A DNA stretch of 64,000 nt from Acidaminobacter sp. (GTDB taxonomy: Bacteria > Bacillota_A > Clostridia > Peptostreptococcales > Acidaminobacteraceae), in assembly GCA_009881125.1 (NCBI GenBank), contig WXFH01000037.1, positions 62,001 through 126,000 of the forward strand, read 5' to 3'. The position numbers and the translations under genes were made by a program. Below, one piece after another: positions 3,424 through 9,284 of this stretch; the first letter of the stretch is position 1, and each line of letters begins with the position of its first letter. The notes under the pieces are model-generated. The model had not been told where the DNA came from, did not search any database, and was given only the letters and a program-made list of their open reading frames with translations.

Positions 3424-3524
3424 AACAGAAATTTGCCATACGTGTGCTGCTGCAAAAACGGAAAAATTTTGCTAAACTGAAAGTTAAGAAAATAAATACT
3501 TTGCCGACGAAATGGGGAGCAGAA

Positions 3525-4943
3525 ATGGTTCAAATATTGCACTTAGGAGATTGTCACTTTGATGATGCCTATTATTTAAACAGACCTGAACGCAAGCGCC
3601 TCCTGGATGAGTGCCGGGAAGAGGCACTCAGAGCGGCAGTGGAGACAGCGGTTGATCGACAGGTGGACCTCTTTGTATGGGCGGGGGATTTACTGGACGG
3701 CGAGCGGCGCATCAGCTTGAAAACCAGAAGTATGCTGGAGCAGGCTCTTTCTGATCTGGAAGGCGCTAAAGTAGAAATGGCCTGGATGACCGGAAATCAT
3801 GACCCTAAATCCTATTTGGAGGCCCAGTCGCTGGATCAGCTCCTGGAGGCCCACGGTGTTCATCTGTTTGACGGCAAAGTGCGGGAAGTCATGCTTAAGG
3901 CTAGAAATGGCATGCCTTACAAATTGGTAGGGTCAGGGCATGAAGAAAGAGGGCTGGTGGAGAACCGGGTGAGGACGTATCCGGTTAAGGCGGACGGCGT
4001 GCTGACCATCGGCCTGCTTCATGGCTCTGTTCAGGGGTCTGCGTTAACTGGGGGCGGGGCCGGTAAGGGAGAGGATGCTGAACTGCCGCCTGGGCTCGAG
4101 CCGGGGGATCTCTATTTTCCGTGTACAAAAGCGGACCTGACGCGGCTTGGGTATGATCTGATCTGCCTGGGACACGTTCATGTGCCTTATAAAATTGAGA
4201 TGTCAGGCGCTGCGGCATTTTATGCCGGAAGCTTGACGGGACTGAGCCATAAAGAGGCAGGGGTTCATGGCGCCTGGCTTCACACGCTCGGGTACGGCGC
4301 GGTTAAAAGCCGGTTTCTCGAACTGTCGACACTGGAGTGGAAAACTGTTCAAATCGCTGTGACGCCAGAGTTGTCGTTGACGCAGTTTGTCGAACTTGTT
4401 CAGACGAAAACGGAGACACAAATCGCGAACCCCGGACTGACACCTTATTTGGAGCGGTTTGACAATGGAAGTCTTGTACGCAGTCGCAGCGGCGCAGATG
4501 AACTGTCAATTTCCAATCAGAGAAGCCGTTTGATGCTGAGACTTTCGATCAGCGGCGTGAACGATACAATACTGACGGCTATTCGCCATGACCCGGAGAC
4601 CCTGCGGGACCGGATTGGAAATGCGGTGAACGCTGCGGAAGTCGAAATACGGTCGGATATGGTACCTGAGCGGGTCCTGGAGCTTCAGCGAACGGGGGAT
4701 ACCTTTGCGGCACATCTCAACACGTGTCTGGAGGATCCGGAGTTTATGGCGAACCTGTGGGCCGCTTACGCACAGCGTGCCTTGACTTTTGAGGCGGAGC
4801 GCCCGGGACTCGAAGATGACAACGGCTTCAGAACGGGTTTGAGTGATGAGGACAGTGAGGCGCAGCTCCTTAAGGAGGCCCTTCATGACCTCTGGCCGCG
4901 CTGGATGCAGCCGTCAAGACGGATGGGCGGTGATCAGGCATGA
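3525..4943 (+). CDS. yhaO: Metallophosphoesterase, SbcD/YhaO-like DNA repair exonuclease subunit
   Basis: 472 aa calcineurin-like phosphoesterase. Successive metal-binding motifs are visible in the usual order: HLGDCHFD (about residue 7), WAGDLLD (about 50), MTGNHD (about 86), LLHGS (about 167) and CLGHVHVPYK (about 218). The ATG at 3525 is chosen because GGGGAG lies just upstream; an in-frame extension to 3444 has no such site. The stop overlaps the next gene's start (ATGA), a tight coupling typical of nuclease/ATPase pairs. In the family this subunit is a two-metal DNA nuclease working with an SMC-like ATPase. The pair resembles Bacillus YhaO/YhaN rather than canonical SbcD/SbcC. Confidence 0.88.
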   Translation: MVQILHLGDCHFDDAYYLNRPERKRLLDECREEALRAAVETAVDRQVDLFVWAGDLLDGERRISLKTRSMLEQALSDLEGAKVEMAWMTGNHDPKSYLEAQSLDQLLEAHGVHLFDGKVREVMLKARNGMPYKLVGSGHEERGLVENRVRTYPVKADGVLTIGLLHGSVQGSALTGGGAGKGEDAELPPGLEPGDLYFPCTKADLTRLGYDLICLGHVHVPYKIEMSGAAAFYAGSLTGLSHKEAGVHGAWLHTLGYGAVKSRFLELSTLEWKTVQIAVTPELSLTQFVELVQTKTETQIANPGLTPYLERFDNGSLVRSRSGADELSISNQRSRLMLRLSISGVNDTILTAIRHDPETLRDRIGNAVNAAEVEIRSDMVPERVLELQRTGDTFAAHLNTCLEDPEFMANLWAAYAQRALTFEAERPGLEDDNGFRTGLSDEDSEAQLLKEALHDLWPRWMQPSRRMGGDQA

Positions 4944-6781
4944 ATCTTACAGAACTGAAACTGGAAGGCATAGGCGGCTATGATCAGTCAAAGACCTTCG
5001 AATTCAAGCCCGGTCTGAATCTCCTCGTAGGGCCAAATGAGGCCGGAAAATCCAGTCTGAAGCGCGCGGCGGAGATTGCGCTGGTAGGATTCAGATCTGC
5101 CCAGGATCGGCATATGGATTCGGAGCAGGCCCGGGTGGAGGCGCGTTTCTCAACAGAGAGCGGCAGTGTCCGGATTTTGCGGGCTTATGGCAAACGCATG
5201 AATGGCCAGCGCATTTCCGAAGCGGATTCGGAAGCGGTGAGTATTGGCAACGGCGCAGCCTTTGATGGCATGGAGCCTGAGGTGTTCGCGTCCTTGTTTT
5301 CCATAGGCGTGGATGAGCTGAGTGAACTGAGGACTCAGGATTGGGAGACGATCGAAAGCAGATTGGTGGGGCATTTGGCATCGACGGGCATGGCACTGCC
5401 TTCTGAAGTGCTGGATCAGCTGTCTGGGGAAATGTCTGCCATTTATCGCGAAAACGGCCGGGGCAACTTTGAACTGAAAGCGATCCTGTCGGCACTGAGA
5501 ACCAAACGGGAGCAGCGGTTGGCTGCGGTCACGGCCATGGAGGCGGAAGCGGGACTGGATCAGCAGATCGCGGAGATTGAGCTCCGACTTGAGGCCGCGG
5601 AATCGGAAGCGCGCCTGTGGCAAAGCCGCGCGGATCAGATTCATCAGCGTCCGGACTTATTGGCGCTGGTTCGGGAGGTTCAGTGGTACGATCAAAAGCT
5701 CGAGGCGCAAGATGACTTGATTTTGCCGGATCGTGAAGCCTTTGAGGTCTATGAAAAAAACAGGCAGCGTCTGGAGGCAGTTGTAGAACCTGAAAACAGG
5801 GCTAAAAAATCCGCTGTGGGTTTCTTGGGTGCCGCGGCAATCCTTTTGACCGCTACGCTTGGATTGAGTGCTGTACTGCGTATCTCTTACCTCGCTTTTG
5901 CGGGAATAGCAGCAGCGTTTATCCTGATCTGGAGAGGGTTGAAGGACAACCGGCAAGCGTCCCTTCTGGAGCGTCAGCGCCGTGAGATGGAGCGGGACGA
6001 GGCGCGCTTTATCCAGGAATTGCCGTTTCAGGGTTCGCTCGCGGTGGAAGAAAGCCTTGCGCTGCTTGAACTCAGAGAGAAGGAGGCGATCCTGAGAACC
6101 CGCTTGAACGCAGATTTGGACTACGCACGGTTTAGCGCATGGCTGCCAAATCAGCCTCTCGAGGAGGCTCAGAGCTTCGCAATGAATGCCCGGCTTGAGC
6201 TGGCGGCCCTTGAGAATCGCCGTCTGGCTCTTGAACTAAAATCGAGACGCCAGGAGATCGCCGCGGAAATTGAGGATGTGGAGCGGGAGATTCTCGGCCT
6301 CGAACGCCGTCAGTCCCAGTGTGTCTCTGAGTGGAACCGCCTGCTTTTAGAAAGCCTGATTGTGGCGTCGGCAGACCAAGCCTTCAGATCCCGCCGCCGC
6401 TATGATTTTCTCGCCGAGTCCACGGTGTATTTGAAAAAACTTACGAATGAACGCTATACCGCGCTTCTGGCACGGGCGGAATCCCCCGGCAGGTTTATGG
6501 TGGAAGGGCCGGAGGGCCTTAAGCCTGTGGATGGACGACTCAGCCGCGGCACTCAGGAGCAGGTCTATCTGGCGCTTAAGCTGGGTTTGGCGGACGCTCT
6601 CGATCCCGAGGGGAACTGGCCTGTATTTTTGGATGATGTGGCGGTCAATTTTGACCGCGTCCGCCGCAGCGGATTCGACGCGCTGCTGGAAACCATTTCA
6701 AAACGGCGCCAGGTATTTTACTTTACCTGCCGGGATGATCTGCCGGCGCGTCTGGAGGCAAATCTGATCCGGATGGGATGA
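4940..6781 (+). CDS. yhaN: YhaN-like AAA ATPase (SbcC/Rad50-like) with internal membrane hairpin
   Basis: 613 aa. Walker A GPNEAGKSS is at residues 31-39; the ABC-like signature appears as LSRGTQEQVYLALKLG near 534 and Walker B as VFLDDVAVNFD near 560. Between them are long charged helical stretches (coiled coil, about 180-290 and 335-500) interrupted at about 290-335 by two hydrophobic segments that could form a membrane hairpin. No zinc-hook CxxC is seen, so this is not a classical SbcC. It overlaps the yhaO stop by 4 nt. Presumably it forms an ATP-driven, possibly membrane-tethered DNA end-processing complex with YhaO; this is inference from the family. Confidence 0.88.
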   Translation: MNLTELKLEGIGGYDQSKTFEFKPGLNLLVGPNEAGKSSLKRAAEIALVGFRSAQDRHMDSEQARVEARFSTESGSVRILRAYGKRMNGQRISEADSEAVSIGNGAAFDGMEPEVFASLFSIGVDELSELRTQDWETIESRLVGHLASTGMALPSEVLDQLSGEMSAIYRENGRGNFELKAILSALRTKREQRLAAVTAMEAEAGLDQQIAEIELRLEAAESEARLWQSRADQIHQRPDLLALVREVQWYDQKLEAQDDLILPDREAFEVYEKNRQRLEAVVEPENRAKKSAVGFLGAAAILLTATLGLSAVLRISYLAFAGIAAAFILIWRGLKDNRQASLLERQRREMERDEARFIQELPFQGSLAVEESLALLELREKEAILRTRLNADLDYARFSAWLPNQPLEEAQSFAMNARLELAALENRRLALELKSRRQEIAAEIEDVEREILGLERRQSQCVSEWNRLLLESLIVASADQAFRSRRRYDFLAESTVYLKKLTNERYTALLARAESPGRFMVEGPEGLKPVDGRLSRGTQEQVYLALKLGLADALDPEGNWPVFLDDVAVNFDRVRRSGFDALLETISKRRQVFYFTCRDDLPARLEANLIRMG

Positions 6782-6813: not shown

Positions 6814-6842
6814 TTGACAATAGAACAAATGTTCGATATACT
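6814..6842 (+). promoter_or_regulatory. Sigma-A promoter with embedded LexA (DinR) box
   Basis: TTGACA (6814-6819) and TATACT (6837-6842) are separated by exactly 17 nt. The spacer contains AGAACAAATGTTCG (6822-6835), matching the Bacillota LexA consensus CGAACN4GTTCG in its palindromic core GAAC-N4-GTTC. LexA bound here would block RNA polymerase, so the downstream gene is predicted to be induced by DNA damage. Confidence 0.88.
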
Positions 6843-6879
6843 GAAAGCATCAAAGGCCCTGTGAAAGAAGGTGAATCTC

Positions 6880-7146
6880 GTGAAAATCGTAGCGAAGCCC
6901 GTTGAAATGATTGCCTATTTTGAAGAGGATGGCGGGGCCATCCGACCGGTCAGGTTCCGTATGGAAGAGGAGAATGAACGGCGCGTGACCGTCAAGGTGG
7001 ATCAGGTGCTCTGCGTGGAGCGCGAGAAACTGGCGGGACACCCTATGTTCGTGTATCGCTGTCAGAGTGAAATTGAAGGGGTCGAGCGCGTCTTTGAACT
7101 CAAGTACGACATTGAGGCCTGCAAGTGGATGCTGTTCAAGATTTAA
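6880..7146 (+). CDS. Small uncharacterised protein, predicted SOS-induced
   Basis: 88 aa from the GTG at 6880 (an upstream in-frame GTG at 6871 is less well placed relative to the GAAGGTGA site). The sequence MKIVAKPVEMIAYFEEDGG continues as an alternating beta-rich, charged domain ending in CKWMLFKI; no TM segment or signal peptide is present. I do not recognise a named family. Its promoter carries a LexA box in the -35/-10 spacer, and dinB, also LexA-boxed, lies convergently 0.8 kb away, so a role in the DNA-damage response is the simplest inference. The compact basic/acidic composition would suit a small protein- or nucleic-acid-binding module. Confidence 0.75.
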   Translation: MKIVAKPVEMIAYFEEDGGAIRPVRFRMEEENERRVTVKVDQVLCVEREKLAGHPMFVYRCQSEIEGVERVFELKYDIEACKWMLFKI

Positions 7147-7178: not shown

Positions 7179-7302
7179 CTTCCGCAGAGGGTGTGGTGGG
7201 TCATAATGGGTGATGTTAAAAAAAATATCTCTCTTTTGGCGAGTCTTTCGGTATATCGGGGTATATAAGGAACAACAAATCCGTAAGAGGGGGGTCTGAC
7301 CC

Positions 7303-7812
7303 ATGAGCGTCCATCATTTTCACTACAATTTTCGAGAGGCGTTGACCAAAAAGTTGAAAGAGCAATTTGCGGAGGATATTGAAAAATATCGTCATGAAAT
7401 GACTCGGATTCATCAGATTGATGAAGCGGAGCAGCTCATCTTCGACTATTTTGGGAGACTGGCTGAGGACCTCGAAGATGTTTTGGCGGTCTCAGACGGA
7501 AGTGTCGGCTTTGAAGGCCCTGAAGGCGACACCATTATCCGCTTTTCCGTTCGCGAAAATTTCATCCGCTTCACGCGCCGGGACAAATTTATTGAGGTTA
7601 AGGTAGGTAAATATGATGCTGTGGATGATATGGTCGAATCGACCATTCTGGGCTATGTCGTCGCCGGTGAAAAAAAGGCGCAGACCAGACGTGTGGGCAA
7701 GGTGCACGGTGGCTCGACCTTTGATGAGAATACGTTGAACTCCTATATGCGCGAAGCGTTTGGGAATTTGTTCCATGAATTTAAAGTCGAAGAGGAGCAC
7801 AAGCCTGAATAG
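7303..7812 (+). CDS. Uncharacterised soluble protein between SOS-type genes
   Basis: 169 aa starting MSVHHFHYNFREALTKK, preceded by an AGAGGGGGG site a few bases upstream. An alpha-helical N-terminal third (residues 1-65, with heptad-like acidic and basic residues) is followed by a beta-rich middle containing FSVRENFIRFTRRDKFIEV, and a helical C-terminus with FGNLFHEF. No TM segment, signal peptide or catalytic motif is recognised. It lies 156 nt after the LexA-boxed small gene and is convergent with dinB. No second LexA box was found directly upstream, so SOS control would need read-through. Confidence 0.75.
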   Translation: MSVHHFHYNFREALTKKLKEQFAEDIEKYRHEMTRIHQIDEAEQLIFDYFGRLAEDLEDVLAVSDGSVGFEGPEGDTIIRFSVRENFIRFTRRDKFIEVKVGKYDAVDDMVESTILGYVVAGEKKAQTRRVGKVHGGSTFDENTLNSYMREAFGNLFHEFKVEEEHKPE

Positions 7813-7913: not shown

Positions 7914-9170
7914 CTAGAGCGCGGAGCGCATCATAGGATAATCCTCATCTCCAACGCCGCCCATGACCGGCTGTATCCCGGTGTGGAGGAAGGAGCCCCG
8001 CTGAATGACGCTGTTTCCGTATTTAAGGCGAAGGTCATCAATGGTTTTGTCCAGCGCGCTGCGGGCGAGGGCTTTCGGATGATCAAAAAACGACAGCTGC
8101 TGCGCCGTCTTTGGTGAGAGATCGCTGACGCGAACGCCGACGTGGCGAAGGGCTGCGCCGGTCCAGAGGGCGTCAAACAGGCCGCAGACTTCCCGGTACA
8201 GGTCATCCGTAGAATCGCTGCGGTAGAGCAGTTTTTTTTGATGGGAAAAATGCTCGAAATCCGAATGGCGGATCGACACGGAAACGAGGCCGTAGGTCAG
8301 CCCTTTGTCCCTGAGGCGCATGCCGACCATTTCCGAAAGGGACAGAAGGTACAGTCGGGCAATTTTGGAATCCTCCACATCAAAAGGAATGGTGGTGGAG
8401 TTTCCAATGCCCTTGACCCCATCACTTTCCGTTTCCAGCATTCCGGCGCTGTCAATGCCGTTGGCATAATTCCAGATCACGTCGCCGTGCTTTTTGAACC
8501 GGATCCGCAGCAGTGTACGGTCGAAGCGCGCGATCTCGCCAATGGTGCGGATGCCCATGCGCTCGAGCTTCTCCTTGGTGGCCCGGCCCACCATAAACAG
8601 GTCGCCGGCCGGGAGGGGCCACATTTTCTCCTCAATTTCCTCCGGATATAAGGTGTGGACCTGATCTGGCTTTCGAAAGTCAGAGGCGACTTTGGCCAGG
8701 AGCTTGTTGACGGAGATGCCTATGTTGACGGTAAAGCCCAGCTCCGTCCGGATTCTGTTTCGGATCTCGTGGGCGACTTCCACCGGGCTTCTGCCGCCCA
8801 GGCGCACGTCGGTCATTTCCAGGAAGCACTCATCAATGGAAAACACCTGAACACGGGGCGAATACTCTTTCAGAACTTCCAGCATGGCGCGGTGGCAGCG
8901 GATGTAAAGCCCGTAGGTCGGGCGAACCAGGACGAGATTTGGGCATTTGAGGAGCGCGGCGCCCACACTTTCGCCGGTTTGTATGTTGTAAGCCTTGGCG
9001 GGGATAGATTTCGCGAGAATGATTCCGCGGCGCTTGGTGACGTCACCGCCCACCGCGGACGGGATGGTCCTCAGATCCAGGGATTCCCCCATCTGCAGGC
9101 GGTAGGCGGCCTCCCAGGACAAATAGGCGGAGTTCACGTCGACGTGAAAGACAATGCGCGAAGCAGACAT
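7914..9170 (-). CDS. dinB: DNA polymerase IV (Y-family translesion polymerase)
   Basis: 418 aa Y-family polymerase. Catalytic motifs are FHVDVNSAYLSWEA (residues about 8-21, carboxylate Asp in DVN) and VFSIDECFLEM (about 107-117, Asp-Glu pair). A helix-hairpin-helix-like GRATKEKLERMGIRTIGEI follows, then the little-finger region. Near the C-terminus QLSFFD looks like a beta-clamp-binding motif. AAAGGAGGGAG precedes the ATG at 9170. It bypasses DNA lesions at stalled forks. Its promoter contains a LexA box, so SOS induction is predicted. Confidence 0.95.
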   Translation of the reverse strand: MSASRIVFHVDVNSAYLSWEAAYRLQMGESLDLRTIPSAVGGDVTKRRGIILAKSIPAKAYNIQTGESVGAALLKCPNLVLVRPTYGLYIRCHRAMLEVLKEYSPRVQVFSIDECFLEMTDVRLGGRSPVEVAHEIRNRIRTELGFTVNIGISVNKLLAKVASDFRKPDQVHTLYPEEIEEKMWPLPAGDLFMVGRATKEKLERMGIRTIGEIARFDRTLLRIRFKKHGDVIWNYANGIDSAGMLETESDGVKGIGNSTTIPFDVEDSKIARLYLLSLSEMVGMRLRDKGLTYGLVSVSIRHSDFEHFSHQKKLLYRSDSTDDLYREVCGLFDALWTGAALRHVGVRVSDLSPKTAQQLSFFDHPKALARSALDKTIDDLRLKYGNSVIQRGSFLHTGIQPVMGGVGDEDYPMMRSAL

Positions 9171-9255: not shown

Positions 9256-9284
9256 AGTTTAACAGAACAAGAGTTCTATTTCAA
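9256..9284 (-). promoter_or_regulatory. dinB promoter with LexA box
   Basis: On the minus strand TTGAAA (9279-9284) and TAAACT (9256-9261) are 17 nt apart. The spacer contains AGAACTCTTGTTCT (9264-9277), a perfect GAAC-N4-GTTC LexA core (9265-9276). The geometry is almost the same as at 6814-6842. Confidence 0.85.

Follow-up and report, generated by a model that had tools for sequence, protein, structure and literature searches.

In the excerpts of the literature cited in this text, ImuB-C is described as a beta domain of about 80 residues with a conserved C-terminal tryptophan and basic residues, often encoded as a standalone protein beside dinB (Aravind, 2013, PMC3765255). Two subgroups of YqjH, found mostly in Clostridia, have been reported as coupled to it (Timinskas and Venclovas, 2019, PMC6511836), and it has been modeled in later work (PMC12926913). 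An SOS-controlled standalone ImuB-C is reported from Deinococcus, and ImuB-C is described as stabilizing the contact between ImuB and ImuA' without being required for it (PMC8072749; PMC11791113). Here we analyze a gene for an 88-residue protein in a 64,000-nucleotide stretch of DNA from Acidaminobacter sp. (Clostridia, Peptostreptococcales; assembly GCA_009881125.1, contig WXFH01000037.1, positions 62,001 to 126,000 of the forward strand), the whole of which we call the window. We propose, with a probability of about 0.72, that this gene is SOS-regulated and that its product, probably a remote ImuB-C, works with a YqjH-type DinB. As judged from sequence, the regulation is well supported and the ImuB-C relation moderately so, and from linkage and co-occurrence we infer a physical partnership.

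The 88-residue protein resembles standalone ImuB-C, a subunit of Y-family mutasomes (DUF6504, the name carried by the Deinococcus deserti ImuB-C protein; also Geobacter GSU0042) in its size class of about 80–90 residues, its richness in beta structure, its C-terminal tryptophan, its Y-family neighbor and its SOS context. The 88-residue family differs from the DUF6504 loci, however, in being paired with a polymerase that closely resembles DinB and is apparently active. DUF6504 was not seen beside such polymerases: among 20 DUF6504 loci from the phylum, a Y-family match lies just upstream in only five, all of them very weak (14–32 bits), and none was found within 1.5 kb at the other 15. A strict LexA box, as defined below, stands near the start of the Y-family match in three of the five.

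There is also a likeness to the PolY-RecA-ImuB-C module predicted for the clostridial YqjH subgroups (PMC6511836), in which one operon encodes a small beta subunit together with a polymerase that has a RecA-N-terminus-like (RecA-NT) motif. The clostridial cases are given in that excerpt without protein accessions and may include the 88-residue branch. We found no description there of this branch's LexA box or split arrangement, and the paper was the only one we found that joins ImuB-C, Clostridia and LexA. The literature already describes standalone ImuB-C next to YqjH polymerases of Clostridia; this analysis adds a branch that the Pfam model does not cover, conserved LexA boxes whether gene and polymerase are joined or separated, and an association with a specific polymerase tail. 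YqjX/YolD, the UmuD-like partner of YqjW/UvrX in Bacillus, is likewise a small beta protein that is induced in the SOS response and shares an operon with a Y-family polymerase, but the partner of the 88-residue protein is taken, without a tree, to be of the YqjH type and not YqjW. With the YolD model (PF08863, the accession given in the excerpt of PMC6511836), the 88-residue protein gave no match at an E-value of 1, and none was found among 34 family members at 0.1.

LexA boxes at the gene and among its relatives

The gene and its control region comprise the following features.

6814..6842, plus strand: sigma-70-type promoter TTGACA-N17-TATACT, read from the sequence
6823..6834, plus strand: LexA-box-type palindrome GAACAAATGTTC inside the promoter spacer, read from the sequence and conserved in relatives
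6864..6871, plus strand: ribosome-binding stretch AAAGAAGG, 8 nucleotides before the GTG start, read from the sequence
6880..7146, plus strand: gene for the 88-residue ImuB-C-like protein, with a GTG start at 6880; all-beta in the model, with an invariant C-terminal tryptophan

The promoter hexamers, TTGACA at 6814–6819 and TATACT at 6837–6842, are separated by 17 nucleotides and carry 11 of the 12 consensus bases. The original prediction had placed a LexA core inside this spacer, and the palindrome is read there directly. The start of the frame is supported by a methionine at that position in 33 of the 34 rows of the family alignment; the list of open reading frames also holds a longer alternative of 91 residues from an upstream GTG. 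The window holds two copies of the LexA-type motif GAACNNNNGTTC against 0.98 expected, with at least two in 29 of 100 shuffles, and the promoter scan returns two promoter-like sites against 1.7 in shuffles. Both figures are at chance level, so neither counts as evidence alone. The scan found just two promoter-like sites between 6700 and 9500, those of the 88-residue protein gene and of dinB, and each has one of the window's two boxes in its spacer.

Support for the gene as a candidate SOS gene, as originally predicted, comes from conservation of the box and from the presence of the same site at recA in the nearest genome. Along the 1600 bases compared, identity between that genome (G001) and the window is 100% after rounding. 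Its recA, recognized from sequence, has the same 12-bp site about 25 nucleotides upstream in the opposite orientation, and its lexA, identified by a Pfam domain match, is preceded by GAACTAATGTTT, a one-base variant of the box. In Clostridioides difficile, LexA binds GAACN4GTTT/C sites, as measured by surface plasmon resonance (excerpt of PMC4234289). The case for placing the gene in a predicted LexA (SOS) regulon is strong. Elsewhere in the nearest genome, GAACATATGTTC lies about 150 nucleotides before the gene for a 432-residue protein that is radical-SAM-like by eye (L013, G001:C53:50660), a possible further SOS gene.

A census of 148 genomes of the order located relatives of the gene in 55 genomes. 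Of 61 matches, 55 full-length relatives were kept, and six fragments (in G107, two pieces in G148, G019, G008 and G079) were excluded. A box was scored as strict when it read GAACN4GTTC and as relaxed when it read RAACN4GTTY, which admits outer-base variants; for polymerase-linked relatives the box window ran from -250 to +150 nucleotides relative to where the polymerase frame opens, and for the others it covered the 300 nucleotides before the gene. A Y-family (dinB-type) polymerase gene stands upstream on the same strand in 34 of the 55 relatives, at gaps of -3 to 653 nucleotides (10–20 nucleotides in 18 of the 34), and a strict box was found near its start in 29 and a relaxed box in 31. At the 21 relatives that have no upstream polymerase, the box lies before the gene itself, strict in 14 and relaxed in 19. 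Taken together, 43 of the 55 relatives have a strict and 50 a relaxed box. Among 2393 background windows flanking the named loci described below, strict boxes number two when 300 nucleotides are scanned (0.08%) and four at 400 nucleotides (0.17%), and relaxed boxes 42 (1.8%) and 57 (2.4%), respectively; the binomial probability of 14 strict boxes in 21 is 9e-39 with kinship ignored. The original prediction had looked to the upstream regions of orthologs as its test, and boxes are present there far above background.

A second, named set began with 67 loci, of which four partial ones (L147, L150, L154 and L155) were dropped to leave 63. The two sets overlap (for example, at G153:C33 and NZ_JARYZI010000001.1), so their counts are not additive. 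In the named set the polymerase is upstream on the same strand, at most 572 nucleotides away, at 46 of 63 loci, and a strict box stands at the operon or the gene at 45; two more loci have a box where the polymerase is 454–572 nucleotides upstream. Across the two sets, three loci cut by a contig end (L130, L131 and L223) were scored as misses. At four Desulfosporosinus loci (L099, L115, L133 and L152), the strict box lies 212–215 nucleotides before the gene, farther than at many other loci.

The box also persists where sequence or gene order has changed. In G002, of the same genus as the nearest genome and with 78% identical DNA, TTGACA-N17-TATGCT surrounds an unchanged 12-mer and the flanks differ. 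For seven genomes with another gene order the polymerase locus was fetched, and a box stands at the polymerase unit in every one of them (six strict). Where gene and polymerase lie apart, the polymerase has its own box in six of six cases, five of them strict; in G026 both outer bases are changed. The small gene is first in the operon in G011, with two strict boxes before it, and in G049, a one-contig genome, gene and polymerase are 1.55 Mb apart with a strict box at each. In G008, G019, G080, G107 and G148 the ImuB-C-like gene is broken or only partly present, which suggests that it has been lost repeatedly within the order.

Probable relation of the 88-residue protein to ImuB-C

The original prediction described the protein as an unrecognized one of 88 residues. 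Its length and its lack of a database family stand: no family exceeds the cut-off in Pfam or NCBIfam, none was found in PHROGs or PADLOC, and a sequence search of the PDB returned no relative. The protein is not wholly unrecognizable, however, and is probably a remote relative of ImuB-C. Across 34 aligned members, P23, G53, C61, W83, L85 and K87 are invariant; of the basic residues, K87 is accompanied by K2 and K50, each present in at least 90% of the sequences.

Profile comparison with hhalign against Firmicute DUF6504/ImuB-C sets gives an end-to-end alignment with probabilities of 93.4–95.6 and scores of 39.9–46.4. The highest score from 100 column shuffles is 19.1. Other protein families at these loci supplied a second control of 90 windows, with a maximum of 13.8 (91 windows were run, and one, confirmed as the family itself, was set aside). 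Against a mixed Firmicute–Deinococcus alignment the probability is 87. AlphaFold2 models the 88-residue protein with a predicted local distance difference test score (pLDDT) of 90, as strands only, eight of which are listed, and no helix; the DUF6504 model has a pLDDT of 92 and six strands. The strand order of the two models was read by eye as equal, with two pairs merged, and fold searches with the two return weak PDB matches that are partly shared. Firmicute members have a similar C-terminal ending, W-x-L-[FY]-[KR]. The attributes by which ImuB-C was defined (Aravind, 2013), namely some 80 mainly beta residues, a highly conserved C-terminal tryptophan, two or more conserved basic residues and a mutagenic polymerase as neighbor, are all found in the 88-residue protein, the last of them in 34 of 55 relatives.

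Among 299 genomes of the phylum, the 88-residue family occurs in 34 and DUF6504 in 76, and both occur in one, where 8.6 are expected (Fisher 0.0003); DUF6504 is found in none of the 148 genomes of the order, the nearest genome included. This pattern fits a scenario in which either family can take the place of the other, but it is also shaped by kinship. Based on the profile comparison, the predicted fold, the conserved tryptophan and the gene context, we consider it likely that the 88-residue protein is a remote ImuB-C branch and not a DUF6504 member.

The probable partner polymerase, a proposed mechanism and its alternatives

The polymerase gene of the window lies on the opposite strand.

7914..9170, minus strand: dinB, Y-family polymerase by domain match, convergent to the 88-residue protein gene
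7917..8081, minus strand: last 55 dinB codons, with a RecA-NT-like motif and a conserved GGV..EDYPMM.S.L tail, from the C-terminal alignment
9256..9284, minus strand: dinB promoter TTGAAA-N17-TAAACT, from the promoter scan
9265..9276, minus strand: LexA-box-type palindrome, the second in the window, within the spacer of the dinB promoter; plus-strand reading GAACAAGAGTTC

In the nearest genome the dinB box is at -106. The DVN and SIDE motifs, which we take to be those of an active Y-family polymerase, are intact in the translation of the window's dinB, which apparently encodes an active polymerase, and a QLSFFD clamp-type motif stands just before the last 55 codons. The C termini of the partner polymerases mostly show the same layout: a QLS-[LF]-F clamp-type motif, a stretch resembling the RecA N terminus and a tail close to GGV-x-EDYPMMSS-L. 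The alignment behind this holds 73 unique frames, 70 of them displayed, including two that lack the C terminus. The RecA-like stretch scores 26.6 against residues 12–35 of RecA from the nearest genome, where 500 RecA shuffles reach 19.2. We call the polymerase YqjH-type because of this motif and the literature on Clostridia, not on the basis of a tree.

The tail co-occurs with the gene across the order. We counted it where a match to the end-region profile reached at least model position 47 at an E-value of at most 1e-3, which leaves out one weak match in G120 (E-value 0.027). By this count it is present in 57 of the 148 genomes: 48 of the 52 with a full-length gene and nine of the 96 without, in a hand-compiled table that scores broken gene remnants as absent and ignores kinship. 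A gene with no tailed polymerase match occurs in G016, G105, G128 and G155. Six loci of one family, f6 (L251, L256, L259, L263, L264 and L265), share the identical tail GGVGEEDYPMMSSLL and have paired LexA-type boxes near the polymerase start.

We propose that in the undamaged cell LexA, bound between the -35 and -10 elements, would block both promoters of the window, and that upon damage RecA filaments would trigger LexA self-cleavage. The 88-residue protein and DinB would then be made together, here from two separate LexA promoters and in 34 of the 55 relatives from one operon. The subunit would join DinB, probably with a RecA protomer held by the RecA-NT motif of DinB, and the resulting translesion complex would be formed or steered by the subunit, as is thought for ImuB-C inside ImuB. 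The sequence itself shows the box, its overlap with the promoter, its conservation alongside the gene, the linkage in operons, the motifs and the remote similarity; LexA binding, induction, contact with DinB and RecA, and an effect on synthesis are predicted steps. More tentatively, and at somewhat less than even odds, DinB in much of the order may be a two-gene, LexA-controlled polymerase, in effect an ImuB divided in two whose active site still functions. Its polymerase gene would supply the RecA-NT motif and a GGV-x-[ED][ED]YPMMSS tail, and the ImuB-C branch would dock on the RecA-NT/tail region and recruit RecA or the replicative polymerase; strong selection would keep both boxes even when the genes are 1.55 Mb apart, as in G049.

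Several observations weigh against this proposal. In the window itself the 88-residue protein gene and dinB are not co-transcribed. Five of the 55 relatives have no relaxed box (L194, L205, L223, which is cut by a contig end, and the second copies L236 and L240), and 18 of the 63 named loci have no strict one. The Pfam DUF6504 model (PF20114) matches none of the 34 members at an E-value of 0.1, and against Deinococcus ImuB-C alone hhalign returns a probability of 3.6 and a score of 18.2, inside the shuffle range. Six of the nine genomes with the tail only belong to f6, and these have no ImuB-C-like gene either within 700 nucleotides after the polymerase or by genome search. The tail is therefore not used by the 88-residue family protein only and may serve another contact; as an exclusive docking site for that protein it is weakened by these genomes.

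The two poor matches to established ImuB-C models bear on the possibility that the gene is SOS-controlled but encodes an unrelated beta-barrel in the same operon slot, with convergent likeness to ImuB-C. We regard this as unlikely, given an end-to-end profile alignment well above both the shuffled and the real-family controls, a strand order read as the same and the similar W-x-L-[FY]-[KR] C terminus in Firmicute members. Alternatively, the 88-residue protein may bind damaged DNA and guide several repair enzymes with no specific tie to DinB, a role proposed for ImuB-C itself in the excerpt of PMC3765255. The 21 relatives that have no upstream polymerase agree with such a role, as does the placement of gene and tailed polymerase on different contigs in G006, G018, G021, G030, G032 and G034; set against these are the 34 relatives downstream of one polymerase type and the tracking of the tailed polymerase by the gene (48 of 52), which make this reading quite unlikely.

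The remaining explanations concern the nature of the gene and of the palindrome. The original prediction had suggested a division inhibitor or repair regulator, and the small size and LexA control of the gene fit an SOS-induced division inhibitor or checkpoint protein. The linkage to a translesion polymerase, an all-beta fold with no predicted helix and the resemblance to ImuB-C make such a protein very improbable, and we replace those roles with that of a polymerase accessory subunit. The palindrome could also have arisen by chance or belong to a regulator other than LexA, in agreement with the chance-level motif count in the window; this is hardly credible for a site that stays with the gene, in either arrangement, throughout the order and recurs at recA. 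We favor the proposal that the protein works with DinB: a LexA switch shared by most relatives and their frequent adjacency to an error-prone repair polymerase indicate that it is probably a damage-induced helper of the polymerase, not a division inhibitor.

Neighboring genes and biological meaning

The original prediction placed the gene between yhaO/yhaN and dinB. This placement holds, with one addition between the 88-residue protein gene and dinB.

7303..7812, plus strand: gene for a 169-residue protein, from the list of open reading frames

The names yhaO and yhaN are those of the original prediction, for a metallophosphoesterase (3444–4943) and an SMC-like ATPase (4940–6781). The 169-residue protein has no family over the cut-off in Pfam or NCBIfam, and a protein 85% identical to it is found in A. 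hydrogenoformans; the match in G002 is also 85% identical. The gene occurs in 10 of the 148 genomes, all of one family, directly after the ImuB-C-like gene in G001, G004, G018, G026 and G030, and in G008 an open gene of this type still stands behind an ImuB-C-like remnant. We rejected it as an intrinsic SOS gene: in all four genomes where it is unlinked (G011–G014) there is no relaxed box within 700 nucleotides upstream, and a GGGTAT element, which resembles a sigma-B -10 box, precedes it by eye at all 10 loci (window copy at 7259–7264). In G004, G018 and G030, a GTTTAA before the gene overlaps the end of the ImuB-C-like gene. It may be a stress gene nested downstream of an SOS one.

By eye, none of the neighbors in the window was recognized as ImuA- or DnaE2-like; the genomes were not searched for either. 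The branch is not matched by the Pfam model and, on present evidence, acts with just one active polymerase; such a pair would be an uncomplicated system for studying the contribution of ImuB-C. To our knowledge, SOS mutagenesis has been little studied in anaerobic Clostridia. The proposal predicts that in these bacteria two subunits carry out translesion synthesis that is induced by damage and may be mutagenic. A gene annotated as hypothetical also gains a function that can be tested.
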